Shown here in pieces: positions 11,751-29,904 of a DNA stretch of 32,548 nt. The position numbers were made by a program, and so were the translations under genes. The notes below the pieces were generated by a model, which saw only the letters and a program-made list of their open reading frames with translations, did no database searches and had not been told where the DNA came from. The stretch lies in assembly GCA_020431405.1 (NCBI GenBank), contig JAGQIK010000453.1, forward strand, positions 1-32,548, given 5' to 3'. This stretch comes from Myxococcales bacterium. Lineage in GTDB: Bacteria; Myxococcota_A; Polyangia; GCA-2747355. Positions within the stretch are counted from its first letter, which is position 1, and every line of letters begins with the position of its first letter.

Positions 11751-12259
11751 TCCTCGAAACCGAGCGCCTGTTGGTGCGCACCTGGAGCCTCGACGACGCC
11801 CCCGCCGCGTTCCGGTTGTGGGGCGACGCCGAGGTGATGCGTTACGTCGGCGATCCCCACGCCGATCTGGCCCGCACGCGCGCCGCCCTCGCGCGGGCGC
11901 GCGCCGCTCAAGACGCGAGCGGCTACTGTGTCTGGGCGCTGCAAGCAAAGGACGATGGTGAGCTGGTCGGCGCCTGTGGGTTTCACCCCGCCGGCATCGA
12001 CAGCGGCCTGACGCTCGAGCTTGTCTTTCATATCCGCCGCGAGCACTGGGGCACGGGCTTCGCGAGCGAGGCCGCGCGCGCCTGCGTCGATCACGCCTTC
12101 GGCGAGCTCGGCGCCACGCGCATCATCGCGGGCGTACGGCACGGCAACGAGCCGTCGATGCACATCCTGGCCAGCCTCGGCTTCGACGACGTCGGCGAGG
12201 ACGGAGACGAGCGCCTCTTCGCGCTCAGCGCGCCGTTTCGACCGGTAGACATCCAATGA
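11717..12259 (+). CDS. GNAT-family N-acetyltransferase
   Basis: A RimJ/RimL-like Acetyltransf_3 (PF13302) enzyme that transfers acetyl from acetyl-CoA to an amine. The family start LETERLLVRTWSLDD is at the N-terminus, and the CoA-binding region is seen in the stretch HWGTGFASEAARACVDHAF, followed by GATRIIAGVRHGNEPSMHIL and LGFDDVGE. The start is uncertain. The ATG at 11645 would read through the preceding lipoprotein gene in another frame, so GTG 11717 is used here (180 residues); a CTG at 11741 is also possible. Either choice overlaps the end of the lipoprotein gene. Its stop overlaps the next ATG (ATGA), so it is cotranslated with the spermidine-synthase-like gene. The substrate is unknown. 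Confidence 0.83.
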   Translation: MDDGQGLQLPVVLETERLLVRTWSLDDAPAAFRLWGDAEVMRYVGDPHADLARTRAALARARAAQDASGYCVWALQAKDDGELVGACGFHPAGIDSGLTLELVFHIRREHWGTGFASEAARACVDHAFGELGATRIIAGVRHGNEPSMHILASLGFDDVGEDGDERLFALSAPFRPVDIQ

Positions 12260-14202
12260 CCTCGGCCAAGGCGCAGCGCTCCTTCTACCTGCTGCTGGCC
12301 TTTCTCGGCGGCTTCCACGTGATGCTGCTCGAGATGTGCGCCTTTCGCGTGCTGTCGACCAACTACGGCTCGTCGATCTTCACCTCGGGCGTGCTGCTGT
12401 CGTTGATCATGGTCGCGCTGTCGGCTGGCTACTATCTCGGCGGGCGCTTCTCCGAGCGCAACGAGACGCTGCGCTTTCTGCTGCTGGTGCTGCTCGGCGC
12501 GGTGATCTACGTCGAGCTGTTCGACGTGCTGCTCGCCAAGCGTCTGCTCGACTGGGCCTTCGCCTGGCGCGTGAGCCTGGTCAAGAGCGGCTCGGACGTG
12601 GCCGTGCGCAGCGCGCTGCCCGCCGGGCTCGCCACGGTGCTGCTCTATGCCGCGCCGATGATCGGCCTGAGCCAGATCACGCCGTATCTGATCAAGCGCA
12701 CCAGCTCCGCCTCGAGCGACGCCGAGAGCGAGCACGTGGGCAAGATCTCGGGGCGGCTGATGGCCGTCTCGACGGTGGGTAGCATCGTCGGCACGCTCGC
12801 GACGACCTTCGTCTTCGTACCCAAGCTCGGCGTGCGCGGCACGCTGGCGGTGTTTTCGATCTCCACCATCGGCGTCGTGCTGGTGGGGCTATTGCTCGAG
12901 CGCTCGCTCGACACCACGGTCAAGGTCGCGCTGCTGCTCGCCGCCGTCTGCGGCGCCGCGTTCTTCTCGTCGGATCCGCGCGAAGAGGGGCTTATCGCCG
13001 AGCGCGAGTCGTACTACGGCAACATCAAGGTCTTTCGCAAGAAGGACGAGCACGGGCGCCCGTATCTGGTCTACCAGCAGACGCGCGTCACGTTTCAGAC
13101 CAAGTCGTACGTCACGCAGCCGCTGCGCAACCACTACATCATGCAGTCGATGAGCCCTGGCGTGGTCTTCGACGCCAAGTCGTGGCTCGTGCTCGGCGTT
13201 GCCGGCGGCAGCATGATCAACACGCTCGACGCGTGGCGGCCCGGACGCGCCGTGACGGCGGTGGACATCGACCGCGCCTCGCTCGACATCGCGCGCGAGC
13301 ACTTTCGCGTCAGCCCGCGCGTCAAGATGGTCGCCGCCGACGCGCGCATGTTTCTGCGCGACACGCAGAAGCGCTACGACTTCATCTTCGTCGACGTGTT
13401 CCTCGGCGAGCAGGTGCCAACGCACTGCGCCACCAAGGAGTTCTTCGCGCTGGTGCGCGAGCGGCTCAGCGAAAACGGCGTGCTGAGCATCAACTCGCAC
13501 ATGGTCAACCTGCCGCGGCTGCCCAAGCTCTCGCGCCAACCGAGCGTCGCCTCGTGGCACCTGCACTCGACGCTCTACGCGGCCGGCTTCGCGTCCGTGT
13601 TTCACAACGACATCTTCGTCTCGGGCAACGTCTACGCCTTCAAGCGCCCGACGACGGCGGCGCAGCTGCAGCAGCGCTACTACCGCGCGCTGAGCGACAG
13701 CAAGCTCGGCGACGACGTGCGCGCCTCGCTGGCCGCCACCATGGTCAGCACGCTCGCCGTGCCGCGAAAACCCGAGGCCAAGCCCTTCACCGACAACTGG
13801 GTCCCCGAGACGGTGCTGCAGCGCAAACAGCCGGTGGACGGCTACAGCCGCGTGGTCAGCGCCGCCCCGCGCGCCGAAGCGCTCGGCGCCAGCAAACGGC
13901 CGCTGCACCAGGCCTTCGCCAGCGGCCTGCACGAAAACGGTCCCGCCTTCTGGCGCCAGGGCAAAGGGCGTCAACCGATGTGCCTCGCAGCGGTGGCCGG
14001 CTTTCGCCGCGCCGACGTCACCGTACACGAGCTGGCGCGCCATCACGTGAGCCACTTCTGCGGACCAGGGCCCAAGACGGGCGGCGTCGCGCGCTATCGC
14101 GACTACATCGTCGGGCTGCGCGCGGTGCGGGCGTGGGACGGAAAACGCGCGCTGCCGCCGCTGCTGCGCACGGTGGAGTTCTTCCGGCACCACTCGAGCT
14201 AG
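12256..14202 (+). CDS. Membrane protein with spermidine-synthase-like methyltransferase fold
   Basis: This 648-residue protein has an N-terminal half with about seven membrane helices (11-30, 42-63, 72-95, 118-140, 168-190, 195-215, 222-238). A Rossmann domain of the spermidine synthase family follows: LVLGVAGGSM 311-320 as the nucleotide loop, D337 in AVDIDR, VAADARMF 359-366, and IFVD with D380. It lacks the full 12-helix MFS-like half of longer relatives. The motifs support SAM or decarboxylated-SAM binding, but residues specific for putrescine cannot be confirmed. The C-terminal 120 residues, after DNWVPETVL, do not resemble the family and are unexplained. ATGA coupling with the acetyltransferase gene hints at joint modification of a polyamine or other amine, which is inference. 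Confidence 0.82.
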   Translation: MTSAKAQRSFYLLLAFLGGFHVMLLEMCAFRVLSTNYGSSIFTSGVLLSLIMVALSAGYYLGGRFSERNETLRFLLLVLLGAVIYVELFDVLLAKRLLDWAFAWRVSLVKSGSDVAVRSALPAGLATVLLYAAPMIGLSQITPYLIKRTSSASSDAESEHVGKISGRLMAVSTVGSIVGTLATTFVFVPKLGVRGTLAVFSISTIGVVLVGLLLERSLDTTVKVALLLAAVCGAAFFSSDPREEGLIAERESYYGNIKVFRKKDEHGRPYLVYQQTRVTFQTKSYVTQPLRNHYIMQSMSPGVVFDAKSWLVLGVAGGSMINTLDAWRPGRAVTAVDIDRASLDIAREHFRVSPRVKMVAADARMFLRDTQKRYDFIFVDVFLGEQVPTHCATKEFFALVRERLSENGVLSINSHMVNLPRLPKLSRQPSVASWHLHSTLYAAGFASVFHNDIFVSGNVYAFKRPTTAAQLQQRYYRALSDSKLGDDVRASLAATMVSTLAVPRKPEAKPFTDNWVPETVLQRKQPVDGYSRVVSAAPRAEALGASKRPLHQAFASGLHENGPAFWRQGKGRQPMCLAAVAGFRRADVTVHELARHHVSHFCGPGPKTGGVARYRDYIVGLRAVRAWDGKRALPPLLRTVEFFRHHSS

Positions 14203-14304: not shown

Positions 14305-14835
14305 GTGGTGTCTACCGGTGGAGAGCGTGGTGAGCGGCAGCGCCTGACGCGGGAGCTGTTCGACAAGCACTCTGCGCTCATCTACAGCAAGTGCCTGAGA
14401 ATGCTGGGCAACCGAGAGGACGCCGCCGACGCGGTGCAGGAGACGTTTACCAAGGCCTTTCGTGCGCTGGAGCAGGCGCGCGAGGTCGAGAGCCAGCTGG
14501 CGTGGCTATTTCGAATCGCCACCACGACGTGTCTGAACATGATCCGTACGCGTGAACGCAAGGGCGCGGTGCTGCTCGACGAGGTCTCGAGCGTCGTCGC
14601 CCACGGCCAGCAGCATCCGCTCGACGCGATGCAGCGGCAGCGCGTGTTCGACGCGCTCTCGGCGCAGTGCGACGAGCGTACGCTCGAGATCTTTGTCGCG
14701 CACTTCGTCGATGGCATGGACCAGGGGCAGATCGCGGCGCAGCTCGGCATCTCGCGCCGCGCGGTGGTCAAGCGCCTGACGCGCCTGCGCGAGCTGGCCA
14801 AGGCGATCTATCGCAGCGAGGTCGGTGAGCCGTGA
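14305..14835 (+). CDS. ECF-type RNA polymerase sigma factor
   Basis: A 176-residue sigma-70 family protein with only regions 2 and 4, as in ECF factors. Region 2 spans about 19-83 with the RMLGNREDAADAVQETFTKAF core; region 4 spans about 112-170 with the helix-turn-helix QIAAQLGISRRAVVKRLTRL. It directs RNA polymerase to a small regulon, which commonly includes its own operon. GTG at 14305 and GTG at 14308 are both possible starts. It overlaps the anti-sigma gene by four bases (GTGA), the usual coupling that lets sigma and inhibitor be made together. Region 4 has Arg-Arg-Ala-Val-Val-Lys where typical ECFs have Glu-Gly-Thr-Val-Lys, so its promoter specificity is probably unusual. Confidence 0.9.
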   Translation: MVSTGGERGERQRLTRELFDKHSALIYSKCLRMLGNREDAADAVQETFTKAFRALEQAREVESQLAWLFRIATTTCLNMIRTRERKGAVLLDEVSSVVAHGQQHPLDAMQRQRVFDALSAQCDERTLEIFVAHFVDGMDQGQIAAQLGISRRAVVKRLTRLRELAKAIYRSEVGEP

Positions 14836-15698
14836 CGGACCGCGAGCAGCACATCGGCTTCTTCGGCCTCGGGCAGTATCTCGCCGGCGAGCTGTCCGAA
14901 ACGCAGGCGCAGCGCGTGGCGGCGCACCTCGAGACCTGCGAGGCGTGCGCGGCGCAGCTCGCGCAGATCGAGGCCGAAGGCGCGGCCTTTAGCGCGCTGG
15001 CAGAAAAGACGTTCGAGGCAGCCTTCGAAGCGGCGAGCGTCGAACAGCAGCCGGCAAAGCCCTCCTCGCGCGCGCGCCAGCCGTGGCGCTGGCCGAGCTG
15101 GCTCAAGATCATGGTGCCCGTCGCCGCGGCCGCGCTCGTCGCCGCGATCGTGATCCCGCGCCTCGTCGCGCCACCTCCGCGCAACGGCGGCGCTGGCGGC
15201 GCGGGGCCTGGCTCGACCTACGTCGCCTACAAGGGCACGCTGGCGCTGCAGGTCGTCGCCAAGCGCGGAGAGCGACAGTTCATCGTCAAGCCCGCGCAGC
15301 GCATGTGCCCGGGCGACGCGCTGCGCTTCAGCATCACCGCCGCGTGGCCGACCACGCACGTGCTGATCGTCTCGTTCGACGCAGCCGACGCGCTGTCGAC
15401 CTTCTATCCCAACGCCTCCACCCCGCGCGACGCGCTCTCACCCGCGGGCAAGACCATCGCGCTCGACGGCAAGGGGCGGCACGTGCTGCCCGGCAGCATC
15501 GTGCTCGACAACACCGAGGGGCGCGAAGTGATCGTCCTGCTCGCCGCGCCTAGGCCCTTCGAGACCGAGGCGCCGCGCGCGCGCATCAAGCAGCTGCTGC
15601 TGCGCGATCGCGGCGCCGCCGCCACGCTGAGCGCCGCCAAGCTGGGCTTTGGCGGCGTGGTGCGCGCGCTGGCGATCAGCAAGGCGTCGTGCAAGTGA
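14832..15698 (+). CDS. Transmembrane zinc-finger anti-sigma factor with DUF4384-like sensor domain
   Basis: This 288-residue anti-sigma factor starts with the ZAS/zf-HC2 motif: His32, Cys36 and Cys39 in AAHLETCEACAAQ (HxxxCxxC). One membrane helix lies at about 92-112. The outer 170 residues contain GDALRFSITAAWPTTHVLIV and FYPNAS with VLPGS further on, a pattern like DUF4384, a beta-sandwich often found beside caspase-like proteins. The N-terminal domain would hold the ECF sigma factor inactive at the inner membrane, and the outer domain would sense a signal outside the cytoplasm. It overlaps both neighbours by GTGA, so sigma, anti-sigma and caspase form one translationally coupled unit. The DUF4384 assignment is by eye and needs a profile search. 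Confidence 0.87.
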   Translation: MTDREQHIGFFGLGQYLAGELSETQAQRVAAHLETCEACAAQLAQIEAEGAAFSALAEKTFEAAFEAASVEQQPAKPSSRARQPWRWPSWLKIMVPVAAAALVAAIVIPRLVAPPPRNGGAGGAGPGSTYVAYKGTLALQVVAKRGERQFIVKPAQRMCPGDALRFSITAAWPTTHVLIVSFDAADALSTFYPNASTPRDALSPAGKTIALDGKGRHVLPGSIVLDNTEGREVIVLLAAPRPFETEAPRARIKQLLLRDRGAAATLSAAKLGFGGVVRALAISKASCK

Positions 15699-17254
15699 AG
15701 CGCTTCGCGCTCGCCCTGCTCGTCCTCGCGGTCCTCGCGACGCCCGCGCGCGCCGAGGTGCAGCGCTACGCGATCATCATCGGCAACAACATCGGCAGCA
15801 AGCGCCGCACCCCGCTGCGTTTCGCCGAGTCCGACGCCAAGAAGATGTTCGCCGTGCTCACCGCAGCTGGGCATTTTTCGCAGCGCGATACCGTGCTTCA
15901 CCTCGGCGCATCGGCCAACGAGGTCTGGCAGAGCCTACAGCGCACCGAGCGCACGCTCGAGCGGCGCGCGGCCAAGGGAGCTGCCCGCTCGCTGCTGCTG
16001 ATCTACTACTCGGGGCACGCCAGCCGCACCGCCCTCGAGCTCGGCGCGAGCACGCTGCCCTTCGCCAAGCTGCGCGCGTTCATCAAGCGCTGCAAGGCCA
16101 CCGTGCGCGTAGCGGTGATCGACGCCTGCCAGAGCGGCCAGCTCGTCGCGTCCAAGGGCGGCACACCCGGGCCGGGCTATCGCATCTCGTTGGCCGATCA
16201 CATGTCGTCCAAGGGCTACGCGATCATCACCTCGAGCACCGAGAGCGAGCTCAGCCAAGAATCGGCCGCCGTGCGCGGCTCGACGTTCACGCACCACTTT
16301 GTCTCGGCACTGCGCGGCGCCGCCGACGACTCGGGCGACGACAAGGTCACCCTCGACGAAGCTTATCGCTACGCCTACTCGCGCACGGTGGCACACACCG
16401 CCGCGCAGCTCGGCGGCGGACAGCACCCGATGTACGACTTCAAGCTTTCCGGCCGCGGCGACATCGTGCTCACGCAGCCCAAGACGCTGCGCTCCGGTCT
16501 GCGCTTTCGCGCGCGCCGCGGCGGCCGGCTGCTGGTGCTCTCGAAGGACCGCGAGCGGGTCATCGGCGAGTTCGCGGCGCGAAGCGGCGCGGCGCTGCGC
16601 GTGGCGCTGCGACCGGGCGACTACTGGGTCTATCTCGTCGCACGCCGCAACGTGCTGCGCGGGAAGGTCTCCGTGCGCGCCGACCAGCTGCAGGACCTCG
16701 GCGAAGCCGCGCTCTCGCGCTTCACGCCGCGCACCAGCGTCGCCAAGGGCGGCCTCTTCGCGCCAGCGCCGATGCATCGTGTCTCGGGCGGCTTTCTCGT
16801 GCGCCGCATGCCCCTCGACGGCGCCGTGCTGGCCTTCGGCGGCGCGCTCTCGTACGGCATCGAGTTTCCCAACGACCTGCAGCCGGCGATCACCATCACC
16901 GCCGCGACGGCGCCCGACGCGGGCCTCTCCGAAGGCTACTTCGAGGTCGGCGCGCATCTCGGCGCCAGCTACACCTGGCTGCGCGCGTGGCGCCAGCGTC
17001 TCGCCTTCTACGTCGAGCTTCGCGCCGGCTACGAGCTGCTCGGCCAGGCCAAACGCGACGACCAAGCGCGCTACACCTCGAGCTTCAGCTACTTCGGCGG
17101 CGCCGGCGTGCGCTTTCCCATCGCCTCGCGCCTCGGCGCGCAGATCGGCGGCGGCGCCGGCGGCAGGCTCTTCGAGCTGCGCGGTCAGGGATGGCAGCAC
17201 CGCCTCGATCTGCAGGCCGTCGCCAGCCTGCTGTGGCAGTGGAGTTTTCGCTAG
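15695..17254 (+). CDS. Secreted caspase-like (C14) protein with barrel-like C-terminus
   Basis: The 519-residue product has a signal peptide (1-21, ending ATPARA), then a caspase-fold domain to about residue 255. The dyad is visible: His108 in YYSGHAS and Cys145 in VIDACQSGQ, followed by TSSTESELSQES and TFTHHFVSALRG. Residues 260-360 form a small beta-rich region with LRPGDYWVYLV. Residues about 370-519 alternate polar and hydrophobic in short strands rich in Gly and Tyr, suggesting an outer-membrane or periplasmic beta-barrel. Arg/Lys-directed cleavage is the family norm. It starts by GTGA overlap with the anti-sigma gene; GTG at 15689 is an alternative. The stop shares CTAG with the stop of the convergent gene. 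Such proteins usually act in the cytoplasm, so an exported one is odd. Confidence 0.87.
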   Translation: MKRFALALLVLAVLATPARAEVQRYAIIIGNNIGSKRRTPLRFAESDAKKMFAVLTAAGHFSQRDTVLHLGASANEVWQSLQRTERTLERRAAKGAARSLLLIYYSGHASRTALELGASTLPFAKLRAFIKRCKATVRVAVIDACQSGQLVASKGGTPGPGYRISLADHMSSKGYAIITSSTESELSQESAAVRGSTFTHHFVSALRGAADDSGDDKVTLDEAYRYAYSRTVAHTAAQLGGGQHPMYDFKLSGRGDIVLTQPKTLRSGLRFRARRGGRLLVLSKDRERVIGEFAARSGAALRVALRPGDYWVYLVARRNVLRGKVSVRADQLQDLGEAALSRFTPRTSVAKGGLFAPAPMHRVSGGFLVRRMPLDGAVLAFGGALSYGIEFPNDLQPAITITAATAPDAGLSEGYFEVGAHLGASYTWLRAWRQRLAFYVELRAGYELLGQAKRDDQARYTSSFSYFGGAGVRFPIASRLGAQIGGGAGGRLFELRGQGWQHRLDLQAVASLLWQWSFR

Positions 17255-28867: not shown

Positions 28868-29458
28868 ATGAGCTTGCGCGAGCGGCGGCTGGTTCGCCGG
28901 CTCAAAGAGCGGGACGAGGACGCGTTCCGCGAGATGGTGCGGACCTACCAAACGCAGGTCTACAACCTCGTCTTTCGCATGCTCGGCAATCGCGAAGAGG
29001 CAGAGGACCTCTCGCAGGAAGTCTTCGTCACCGTCTTCAAGTCCATCGAGAGCTTCCGCGGCGACAGCAAGTTCTCCACCTGGCTTTACCGCATCACCGC
29101 CAACCACTGTAAGAACCGCTTCAAGTACCTCGCGCGGCGCCGCTTCCACGCCGCCGCGCCGCTCGACGACCTCACCGAGCGCGACGCCGCCGGGCGCGAC
29201 GGCGGCCCCGCGATGGCGCTGCAGGCGCGCATCAGCGAGCCCGACAAGCTGCTCGAAGCCAAGCGCCTCGAGGACGCGATCCAGCGCGCCATCGCCGACC
29301 TCGAGGAAGACCACCGCCTGCTCATCGTCCTGCGCGACGTGCAGGGGCTCAGCTACAACGAGATCTCGGACATCACCAGCCTGGCCGAGGGCACCGTCAA
29401 GTCGCGCCTGCACCGCGCGCGCATGGCGCTCAAGGACAAGTTGAAGAAACATATATAG
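28868..29458 (+). CDS. ECF-type RNA polymerase sigma factor (RpoE-like)
   Basis: The protein has 196 residues with regions 2 (about 20-90) and 4 (about 134-190). Region 2 holds RMLGNREEAEDLSQEVFVTVF and SFRGDSKFSTWLYRITANHCKNR, and region 4 has LSYNEISDITSLAEGTVKSRLHRAR, a standard ECF helix-turn-helix. It resembles the classical RpoE group more closely than the sigma factor at 14305 does. GGGA lies about 7 nt before the ATG. It is followed 17 nt on by a membrane anti-sigma gene, so its activity is probably released by an envelope signal. The regulon is unknown; the flanking outer-membrane and lipoprotein genes are candidates. Confidence 0.93.
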   Translation: MSLRERRLVRRLKERDEDAFREMVRTYQTQVYNLVFRMLGNREEAEDLSQEVFVTVFKSIESFRGDSKFSTWLYRITANHCKNRFKYLARRRFHAAAPLDDLTERDAAGRDGGPAMALQARISEPDKLLEAKRLEDAIQRAIADLEEDHRLLIVLRDVQGLSYNEISDITSLAEGTVKSRLHRARMALKDKLKKHI

Positions 29459-29475
29459 ACGCGATCAGGATGACG

Positions 29476-29904
29476 ATGGACCACGACCGCGTACGCGAGC
29501 TGCTCAGCGACTACCTCGAAGGCAACCTGCCCGACGAGCAAGCCGCCGAAGTGCGCGCGGCCATCGAGGCGTCGGCCGAGCTGAAGGCCGAGACCGCCGC
29601 GCTGCGCGAGACCATGTCGGCGCTCTCGGGGCTGCACCAGCTCGACCAGGCGCCCGATATCGCCGCCAAGGTCGAAAAGAAGATTCACCGCCGCTCGCGC
29701 GGCCGCTTCTTCAGCGAAGAGCCGACCTGGCGCAAGCTGCCCTTCGAGTGGATCTCGCTGGTGGTGATCATGCTGCTGCTGGCGACCTATCTGTACTTCG
29801 TGATGAAGACGGATCAGCCAGTGAGCATTCGGCCGGGGAGCGTGGGCTCGGTCGGAAAACCCGAGCCCAAGGCGAAGACGCCGAGGAAGGGCGCGGCGGA
29901 CTAG
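29476..29904 (+). CDS. Membrane anti-sigma factor lacking the zinc motif
   Basis: 142 residues from ATG 29476, which has AGGA 5 nt upstream; ATG 29470 is the alternative but would overlap that site. The N-terminal helical part, DRVRELLSDYLEGNLPDEQAAEVRAAIEA, matches the anti-sigma fold where zf-HC2 normally has HxxxCxxC. Here those positions hold Glu, Ala and Ser with no Cys, so zinc is not bound. A membrane helix spans about 91-110 (EWISLVVIMLLLATYLYFVM). The short outer tail is basic and rich in Lys and Pro, too small for an enzyme or sensor domain. It would bind the sigma factor encoded upstream. The stop lies 11 nt before that of the convergent lipoprotein gene. Confidence 0.85.
   Translation: MDHDRVRELLSDYLEGNLPDEQAAEVRAAIEASAELKAETAALRETMSALSGLHQLDQAPDIAAKVEKKIHRRSRGRFFSEEPTWRKLPFEWISLVVIMLLLATYLYFVMKTDQPVSIRPGSVGSVGKPEPKAKTPRKGAAD

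Follow-up and report, generated by a model that had tools for sequence, protein, structure and literature searches.

A three-gene switch in which an exported caspase probably cleaves both its own chain and a membrane-bound anti-sigma factor at corresponding lysine-glycine sites

Sequence evidence suggests that many myxobacteria-type bacteria possess a three-gene switch built around a caspase targeted to the outer membrane, which would cleave its own chain as well as a membrane-bound inhibitor at lysine-glycine sites of the same kind and so release a transcription factor. The example described here is an operon for an ECF sigma factor, an anti-sigma factor, and a caspase in a 32,548-nucleotide stretch of DNA (hereafter, the window) from a Myxococcales bacterium. 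We think it likely that the caspase, predicted to be a Lys/Arg-specific enzyme tethered to the outer membrane, processes itself and makes the site-1 cut in the anti-sigma factor. A first-pass annotation of this DNA had proposed that the caspase could cleave the anti-sigma factor, and the proposal now draws support from a [K/R]-G motif common to the two proteins and from conserved acidic residues in the predicted S1 pocket of the enzyme, from which we infer cleavage.

The three genes lie on the forward strand and, as had been noted earlier, overlap in two GTGA junctions (14832–14835 and 15695–15698). The first gene (14305–14835) encodes a 176-residue ECF sigma factor having regions 2 and 4 only, both above the profile cut-off (Pfam Sigma70_r2, 9.5e-16, and Sigma70_r4_2, 7e-8; TIGR02937, 2.3e-22). 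The second (14832–15698) encodes a membrane anti-sigma factor of 288 residues with a zinc finger (zf-HC2, 9.1e-9), one transmembrane helix, a disordered linker, and a periplasmic DUF4384-like domain (AlphaFold pLDDT 84.8). The third (15695–17254) encodes an exported caspase of 519 residues with a C-terminal β-barrel; GTG 15689 is a possible alternative start, and 15695 is the start that fits the overlap. A search of 136 upstream regions for a sigma promoter common to such operons found nothing above shuffled sequence. Elsewhere in the window, the gene upstream of the operon (12256–14202, forward strand), whose product resembles fused MFS/spermidine synthase proteins (NF037959, 136.9 bits), is likely to be unrelated to it. 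A second ECF sigma/anti-sigma pair (28868–29458 and 29470–29904, forward strand) has no adjoining caspase gene, and its anti-sigma factor is short and lacks a DUF4384-like domain.

The linkage of the caspase gene to the sigma-factor genes is conserved and exceeds chance. We scored a locus as linked when an anti-sigma gene lay directly upstream of the caspase gene or when a sigma gene, with or without an anti-sigma gene, lay on the same strand. Within the class, where 159 of 318 genomes contained a caspase match, 76 of 81 loci (80 plus the window) were beside an ECF sigma gene, an anti-sigma gene, or both; because the loci were the best hits per genome, this rate describes close relatives and should not be extended to bacterial caspases at large. 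The order was sigma, anti-sigma, caspase at 64 of these loci and caspase, one gene, sigma, anti-sigma at 10; two were partial, and five had no such neighbor within the set limits. Four of these five (L093, L133, L150, and L161) have a contig end close by on one side or both; in the fifth (L164), a sigma/anti-sigma pair of the same orientation lies upstream at a distance of about 2.8 kb. When GTDB contigs were scanned separately, 80 loci were recovered, of which 57 were new and 49 of the 57 showed the same linkage; the scan recovered Myxococcus, Archangium, and Anaeromyxobacter along with genomes labeled Fibrobacter, Chitinivibrionales, Acidobacteria, and Vicinamibacteria, many of the genomes being MAGs. 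The source genome itself (11.2 Mb in 733 contigs) contains ten loci of this caspase type, and at all ten an anti-sigma gene, a sigma gene, or both adjoin the caspase gene or the contig end falls after the anti-sigma gene (one of these anti-sigma factors was recognized by its zinc motif only).

For a few caspases, the sigma and anti-sigma genes were distant, divergent, or not found. At one locus (L050:1157-4179) the caspase gene is convergent to the sigma/anti-sigma pair, and so the linkage survives inversion. Another (L253:6028-8456) has two caspase genes in tandem behind a single pair, with KG hinges in both products. In the caspase-first loci, the gene between caspase and sigma encodes a conserved, exported, Cys-rich protein with the motif FDLWCGDxLCxW (L131:7559-8698, L152:4229-5368, L157:4202-5434, L266:4540-5775, and L141:7634-8170), which is a candidate ligand, sensor, or substrate.

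The anti-sigma factor is predicted to belong to class I of the zinc anti-sigma factors: its N-terminal region contains the HxxxCxxC motif (H32-x3-C36-x2-C39; 14925–14948), which is invariant in 46 aligned homologues, and a helical part (helices 10–71) that would bind sigma. In the AlphaFold model this zinc-helical part is followed by a transmembrane helix at residues 90–112 (15099–15167), also evident from hydrophobicity, a disordered stretch at residues 114–132, and a β domain beginning at residue 138 (residues 138–284; 15243–15683). The match of this domain to DUF4384 falls below the profile cut-off in the window protein (4.9e-5), but 32 of the 46 homologues match DUF4384, the best at 8e-10, and this secures the call. 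A PDB fold search with the model returned only weak β-sandwich matches, none at E ≤ 0.001, and we therefore claim no sensory ligand for it. Besides the zinc ligands, four alignment columns exceed 90% conservation: Arg82, Lys134, Gly135, and Gly230.

The caspase begins with a short basic segment and a hydrophobic stretch ending in A-R-A (15695–15754). By a hydrophobicity rule of thumb rather than a trained predictor, this signal-peptide-like N-terminus, which the earlier annotation had called a signal peptide, recurs in 96 of 97 homologues, with Ala-x-Ala after the hydrophobic stretch in 82. The accompanying remark that caspases usually work in the cytoplasm calls for correction, as exported ones are not unheard of: a 2012 caspase survey counts 46 sequences with an N-terminal helix, possibly a signal peptide (PMC3501461). 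An AlphaFold model of the protein, run on an alignment of 69 sequences (mean pLDDT 91.1, pTM 0.84), consists of a caspase domain (15764–16438), a β-sandwich (residues 258–343; 16466–16723), and an eight-stranded barrel of the outer-membrane type (residues 360–517; 16772–17245) with strands of 12–19 residues. The front part matches Peptidase_C14 (PF00656, 5.8e-12; 46.2 bits against a gathering cut-off of 21.4) and, in Foldseek, caspase-7 and metacaspases, and the last part matches NspA, Ail, and OmpA in the PDB (TMt 0.66–0.71). The Pfam OMP_b-brl profile gave no match for the window protein and matched six of 84 homologues. The hallmarks of such a barrel are all present, namely a signal peptide, eight amphipathic strands, and a terminal aromatic residue (F, W, or Y among the last three residues in 71 of 94 homologues; the window protein ends in W-S-F-R). 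Thus, the three features on which the original proposal hung, a barrel at the C-terminus of the model, a signal-peptide-like N-terminus, and conserved linkage, are all in place. EF-hand profile matches (EF-hand_5) in five of 84 caspase homologues suggest that calcium may matter in some members.

The His/Cys dyad of the first-pass annotation is borne out as well: His108 (16016–16018) is conserved in 98 of 98 homologues and Cys145 (16127–16129) in 99 of 99, which indicates that the caspase is under selection for activity. In TbMCA2, Asp95 and Asp211 coordinate basic P1 residues (PMC6426788). By motif alignment, which relied on the region around LRxAExD and on the aspartate two residues before the catalytic cysteine, their equivalents are Asp47 (15833–15835; D in 87 and E in 11 of 98) and Asp143 (16121–16123; 99 of 99). 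Meta- and orthocaspases cleave after Arg or Lys (PMC8283722, PMC7475262), and the Microcystis orthocaspase MaOC1 activates itself at Arg219 (PMC7475262). The conserved acids of the caspase would thus favor a basic P1 residue, which is what a [K/R]-G motif demands.

Such a motif, which went unremarked in the first-pass annotation and is the strongest evidence for the proposal, is found at three places: the loop after the catalytic cysteine of the caspase (K154-G155; 16154–16159), the hinge between its protease and barrel (K351-G352; 16745–16750), and the linker of the anti-sigma factor just outside the membrane (K134-G135; 15231–15236). At all three it is near-invariant within otherwise variable sequence. 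The loop after the catalytic cysteine is the classical place of processing in caspases; here, position 154 is K in 90 and R in nine homologues, the next residue is G in 95 of 99, and the loop (residues 151–170) is modeled with low confidence. At the hinge, K is found in 82 and R in 15 of 97 homologues, G follows in 92, and the pair falls in the sole segment of the model with pLDDT < 50 (residues 350–353). In the anti-sigma factor, where P1 is K in 80 and R in nine and P1′ is G in 88 of 89, the pair lies where the disordered linker ends. Only the P1–P1′ pair is common to the caspase and anti-sigma sites; the flanking positions differ.

Composition does not account for these counts. [K/R]G was present in 88 of 89 anti-sigma linkers (55.7 in shuffled sequences) and in 94 of 97 caspase hinges (63.7 in shuffles). 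Counted without an alignment, KG alone occurred within 45 residues after the transmembrane helix in 79 of 89 anti-sigma factors (22.2 ± 3.9 in shuffles) and in the hinge region of 82 of 97 caspases (19.3 ± 3.7 in shuffles); K is strongly preferred at the motif, even though those regions contain two to four times as many R as K. Among the 57 further loci, [K/R]G was found in 53 of 58 caspases and 48 of 54 anti-sigma factors, some of the misses being alignment slips. At one locus (L209) both partners seemed to have Glu at P1, but inspection showed this likewise to be an alignment slip. By comparison, KG was present in just one of 16 unlinked zinc-finger membrane proteins from the same genomes. 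At one locus (L039:2479-3657) a gene downstream of the caspase gene encodes a further anti-sigma-like protein with a transmembrane helix and a VRLRG linker motif, and the hinge of the caspase there is also R-G.

The motifs might instead be structural, marking where domains start or end rather than where they are cut. The anti-sigma motif does lie four residues before the first β strand, and Gly is common at such turns. We nevertheless hold this to be very improbable, as the motif recurs in three unrelated structural contexts, two of them segments of very low confidence and the third a low-confidence loop, and as the basic residue, which can be either K or R but must be one of them, is part of a solvent-side linker in the models.

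Correlated changes between K and R at the three sites are supportive, though not conclusive, of matched cleavage. R154 occurred only together with R351 (nine of nine, against six of 88 for K154; Fisher 3.5e-9), and the K/R state of the anti-sigma factor was associated with that of the caspase hinge in linked pairs (Fisher 1.3e-4, ignoring phylogeny). We mapped the changes by the Fitch method on a midpoint-rooted FastTree tree of 156 caspase domains, a caspase gene tree from which columns 153–156 had been removed. Caspase positions 154 and 351 changed on three shared branches (null 0.17, p 2e-4), caspase 154 and anti-sigma 134 on two (p 0.003), and caspase 351 and anti-sigma 134 on three (p 0.004), tests that are not independent because one or two branches recur across the pairs of sites. 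In all, the correlation rests on about three events, in one of which (L045) two of the sites read K-P and K-R instead of K-G, and an R at the hinge accompanied a K in the anti-sigma factor in 15 sampled loci.

These observations bear on the second alternative offered by the first-pass annotation, that the caspase is an output of the regulon. In that case it would be an envelope or extracellular protease switched on by the sigma factor, with some other protease cutting the anti-sigma factor. ECF operons often encode their own outputs, and the existence of two arrangements, in one of which the caspase gene comes first and is separated from the sigma pair by an additional gene, would suit such a role. 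Left unexplained, however, would be the near-invariant basic-Gly motif common to the anti-sigma factor and the caspase, its rarity in unlinked anti-sigma factors, and the correlated K/R changes, and so we judge this alternative unlikely and less probable than cleavage of the anti-sigma factor by the caspase.

How might cleavage by the caspase operate? The enzyme would be exported to the periplasm as a zymogen tethered to the outer membrane by its eight-stranded barrel. Upon a signal, for which the barrel, the β-sandwich, and the DUF4384 domain are candidate sensors, it would cleave its own chain at two points, one following Lys154 in the loop behind its active site and the other following Lys351 in the hinge that leads to the barrel; this self-processing would both activate it and release it from the outer membrane. 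Since the barrel would reside in the outer membrane, putatively either such release or close contact across the periplasm is required for the caspase to reach the inner membrane. The next target of the freed caspase would be the inner-membrane anti-sigma factor, cleaved on the C-terminal side of Lys134, within the disordered linker that adjoins the membrane on its periplasmic face. This would be the site-1 step of regulated intramembrane proteolysis, after which a site-2 protease would free the ECF sigma factor; M50 homologues, possible site-2 proteases, are present in the genome, but they are near-universal.

DegS is a serine protease of the inner membrane, whereas the operon of the window encodes a cysteine protease of clan CD carried on an outer-membrane barrel. 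The likeness to the DegS/RseA/sigma-E system lies in a membrane anti-sigma factor that receives its site-1 cut in the periplasm (PMC10028731), as is proposed for the operon of the window. MaOC1 and the eukaryotic metacaspases resemble the window caspase in having the caspase fold, and metacaspases are among its structural matches; the Lys or Arg at P1 and the autocatalytic activation described for them (PMC7475262, PMC8283722) are what we propose for it. Unlike it, they are neither tied to an anti-sigma factor nor fused to an outer-membrane barrel. Cleavage of an ECF sigma inhibitor by a caspase-family protease is itself already known from the type III-E CRISPR system Csx29/Csx30/CASP-sigma (Strecker et al. 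2022; PMC10028731). Csx29 differs in being a cytoplasmic, RNA-guided TPR-CHAT protease, and Csx30 is not a zinc-containing, membrane-spanning anti-sigma factor; the window caspase is exported, belongs to PF00656 rather than CHAT, and had no Cas gene among the neighbors scanned, in keeping with its not being a type III-E CASP (Cas7-11 plus TPR-CHAT). PADLOC returned only weak, generic caspase hits, for which reason we make no claim of a role in defense, and PHROGs returned no hits.

The association of caspases with sigma factors in operons is likewise already known. The first-pass annotation had drawn the sigma link from gene order, and the link has held up as conserved linkage; a second correction is that the 2012 survey already records operons of sigma factors and metacaspases in Myxococcus, Anaeromyxobacter, Haliangium, Sorangium, Ralstonia, and Fibrobacter (Asplund-Samuelsson et al. 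2012; PMC3501461). Our locus set includes loci from Myxococcus, Archangium, Anaeromyxobacter, Sorangium, Nannocystis, and Fibrobacter, and the operon of the window very probably belongs to the same family as the sigma-70/metacaspase operons of myxobacteria and Fibrobacter described there. In its passages on these operons, the survey names sigma factors only and proposes a possible cell-death role; the anti-sigma factor, barrel, motif, and cleavage mechanism come from the present analysis. A search of the open-access literature, with subscription journals largely outside its reach, found no report joining a caspase or metacaspase to cleavage of an envelope anti-sigma factor or describing the motif or mechanism.

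The role in death suggested for the Myxococcus operons (PMC3501461) raises the alternative that the module serves killing or autolysis rather than transcription as its main outcome, the DUF4384 domain of the anti-sigma factor docking or restraining the caspase. DUF4384 is an accessory domain inside cyanobacterial orthocaspases (19 true and four pseudo; PMC8283722), which makes a physical partnership between it and the caspase plausible. Export to the periplasm would be odd for a cytoplasmic death protease, however, and about ten paralogous modules in one genome, each accompanied by a sigma pair of its own wherever the contig extends far enough to show it, suit signaling better; we therefore regard a death module as distinctly improbable, a little more so than a role as output alone.

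We lean, on balance, toward a class of signaling systems in which a barrel-caspase zymogen, released by its own action, is the site-1 protease of an anti-sigma factor, with the specificities of enzyme and substrate coevolving and about ten such modules in single genomes. Predictions now exist for the substrate, the scissile bond, and the catalytic residue alike, so that experiments can address directly what the exported caspases of bacteria cut, a long-standing question. If the proposal is true, bacterial caspases would have a defined job beyond death or defense, that of carrying a signal from the outer membrane to RNA polymerase. The many paralogous modules within a genome, which raise the question of how cross-talk is avoided, would then offer a natural model of how a protease and its substrate keep their specificities matched in many copies.
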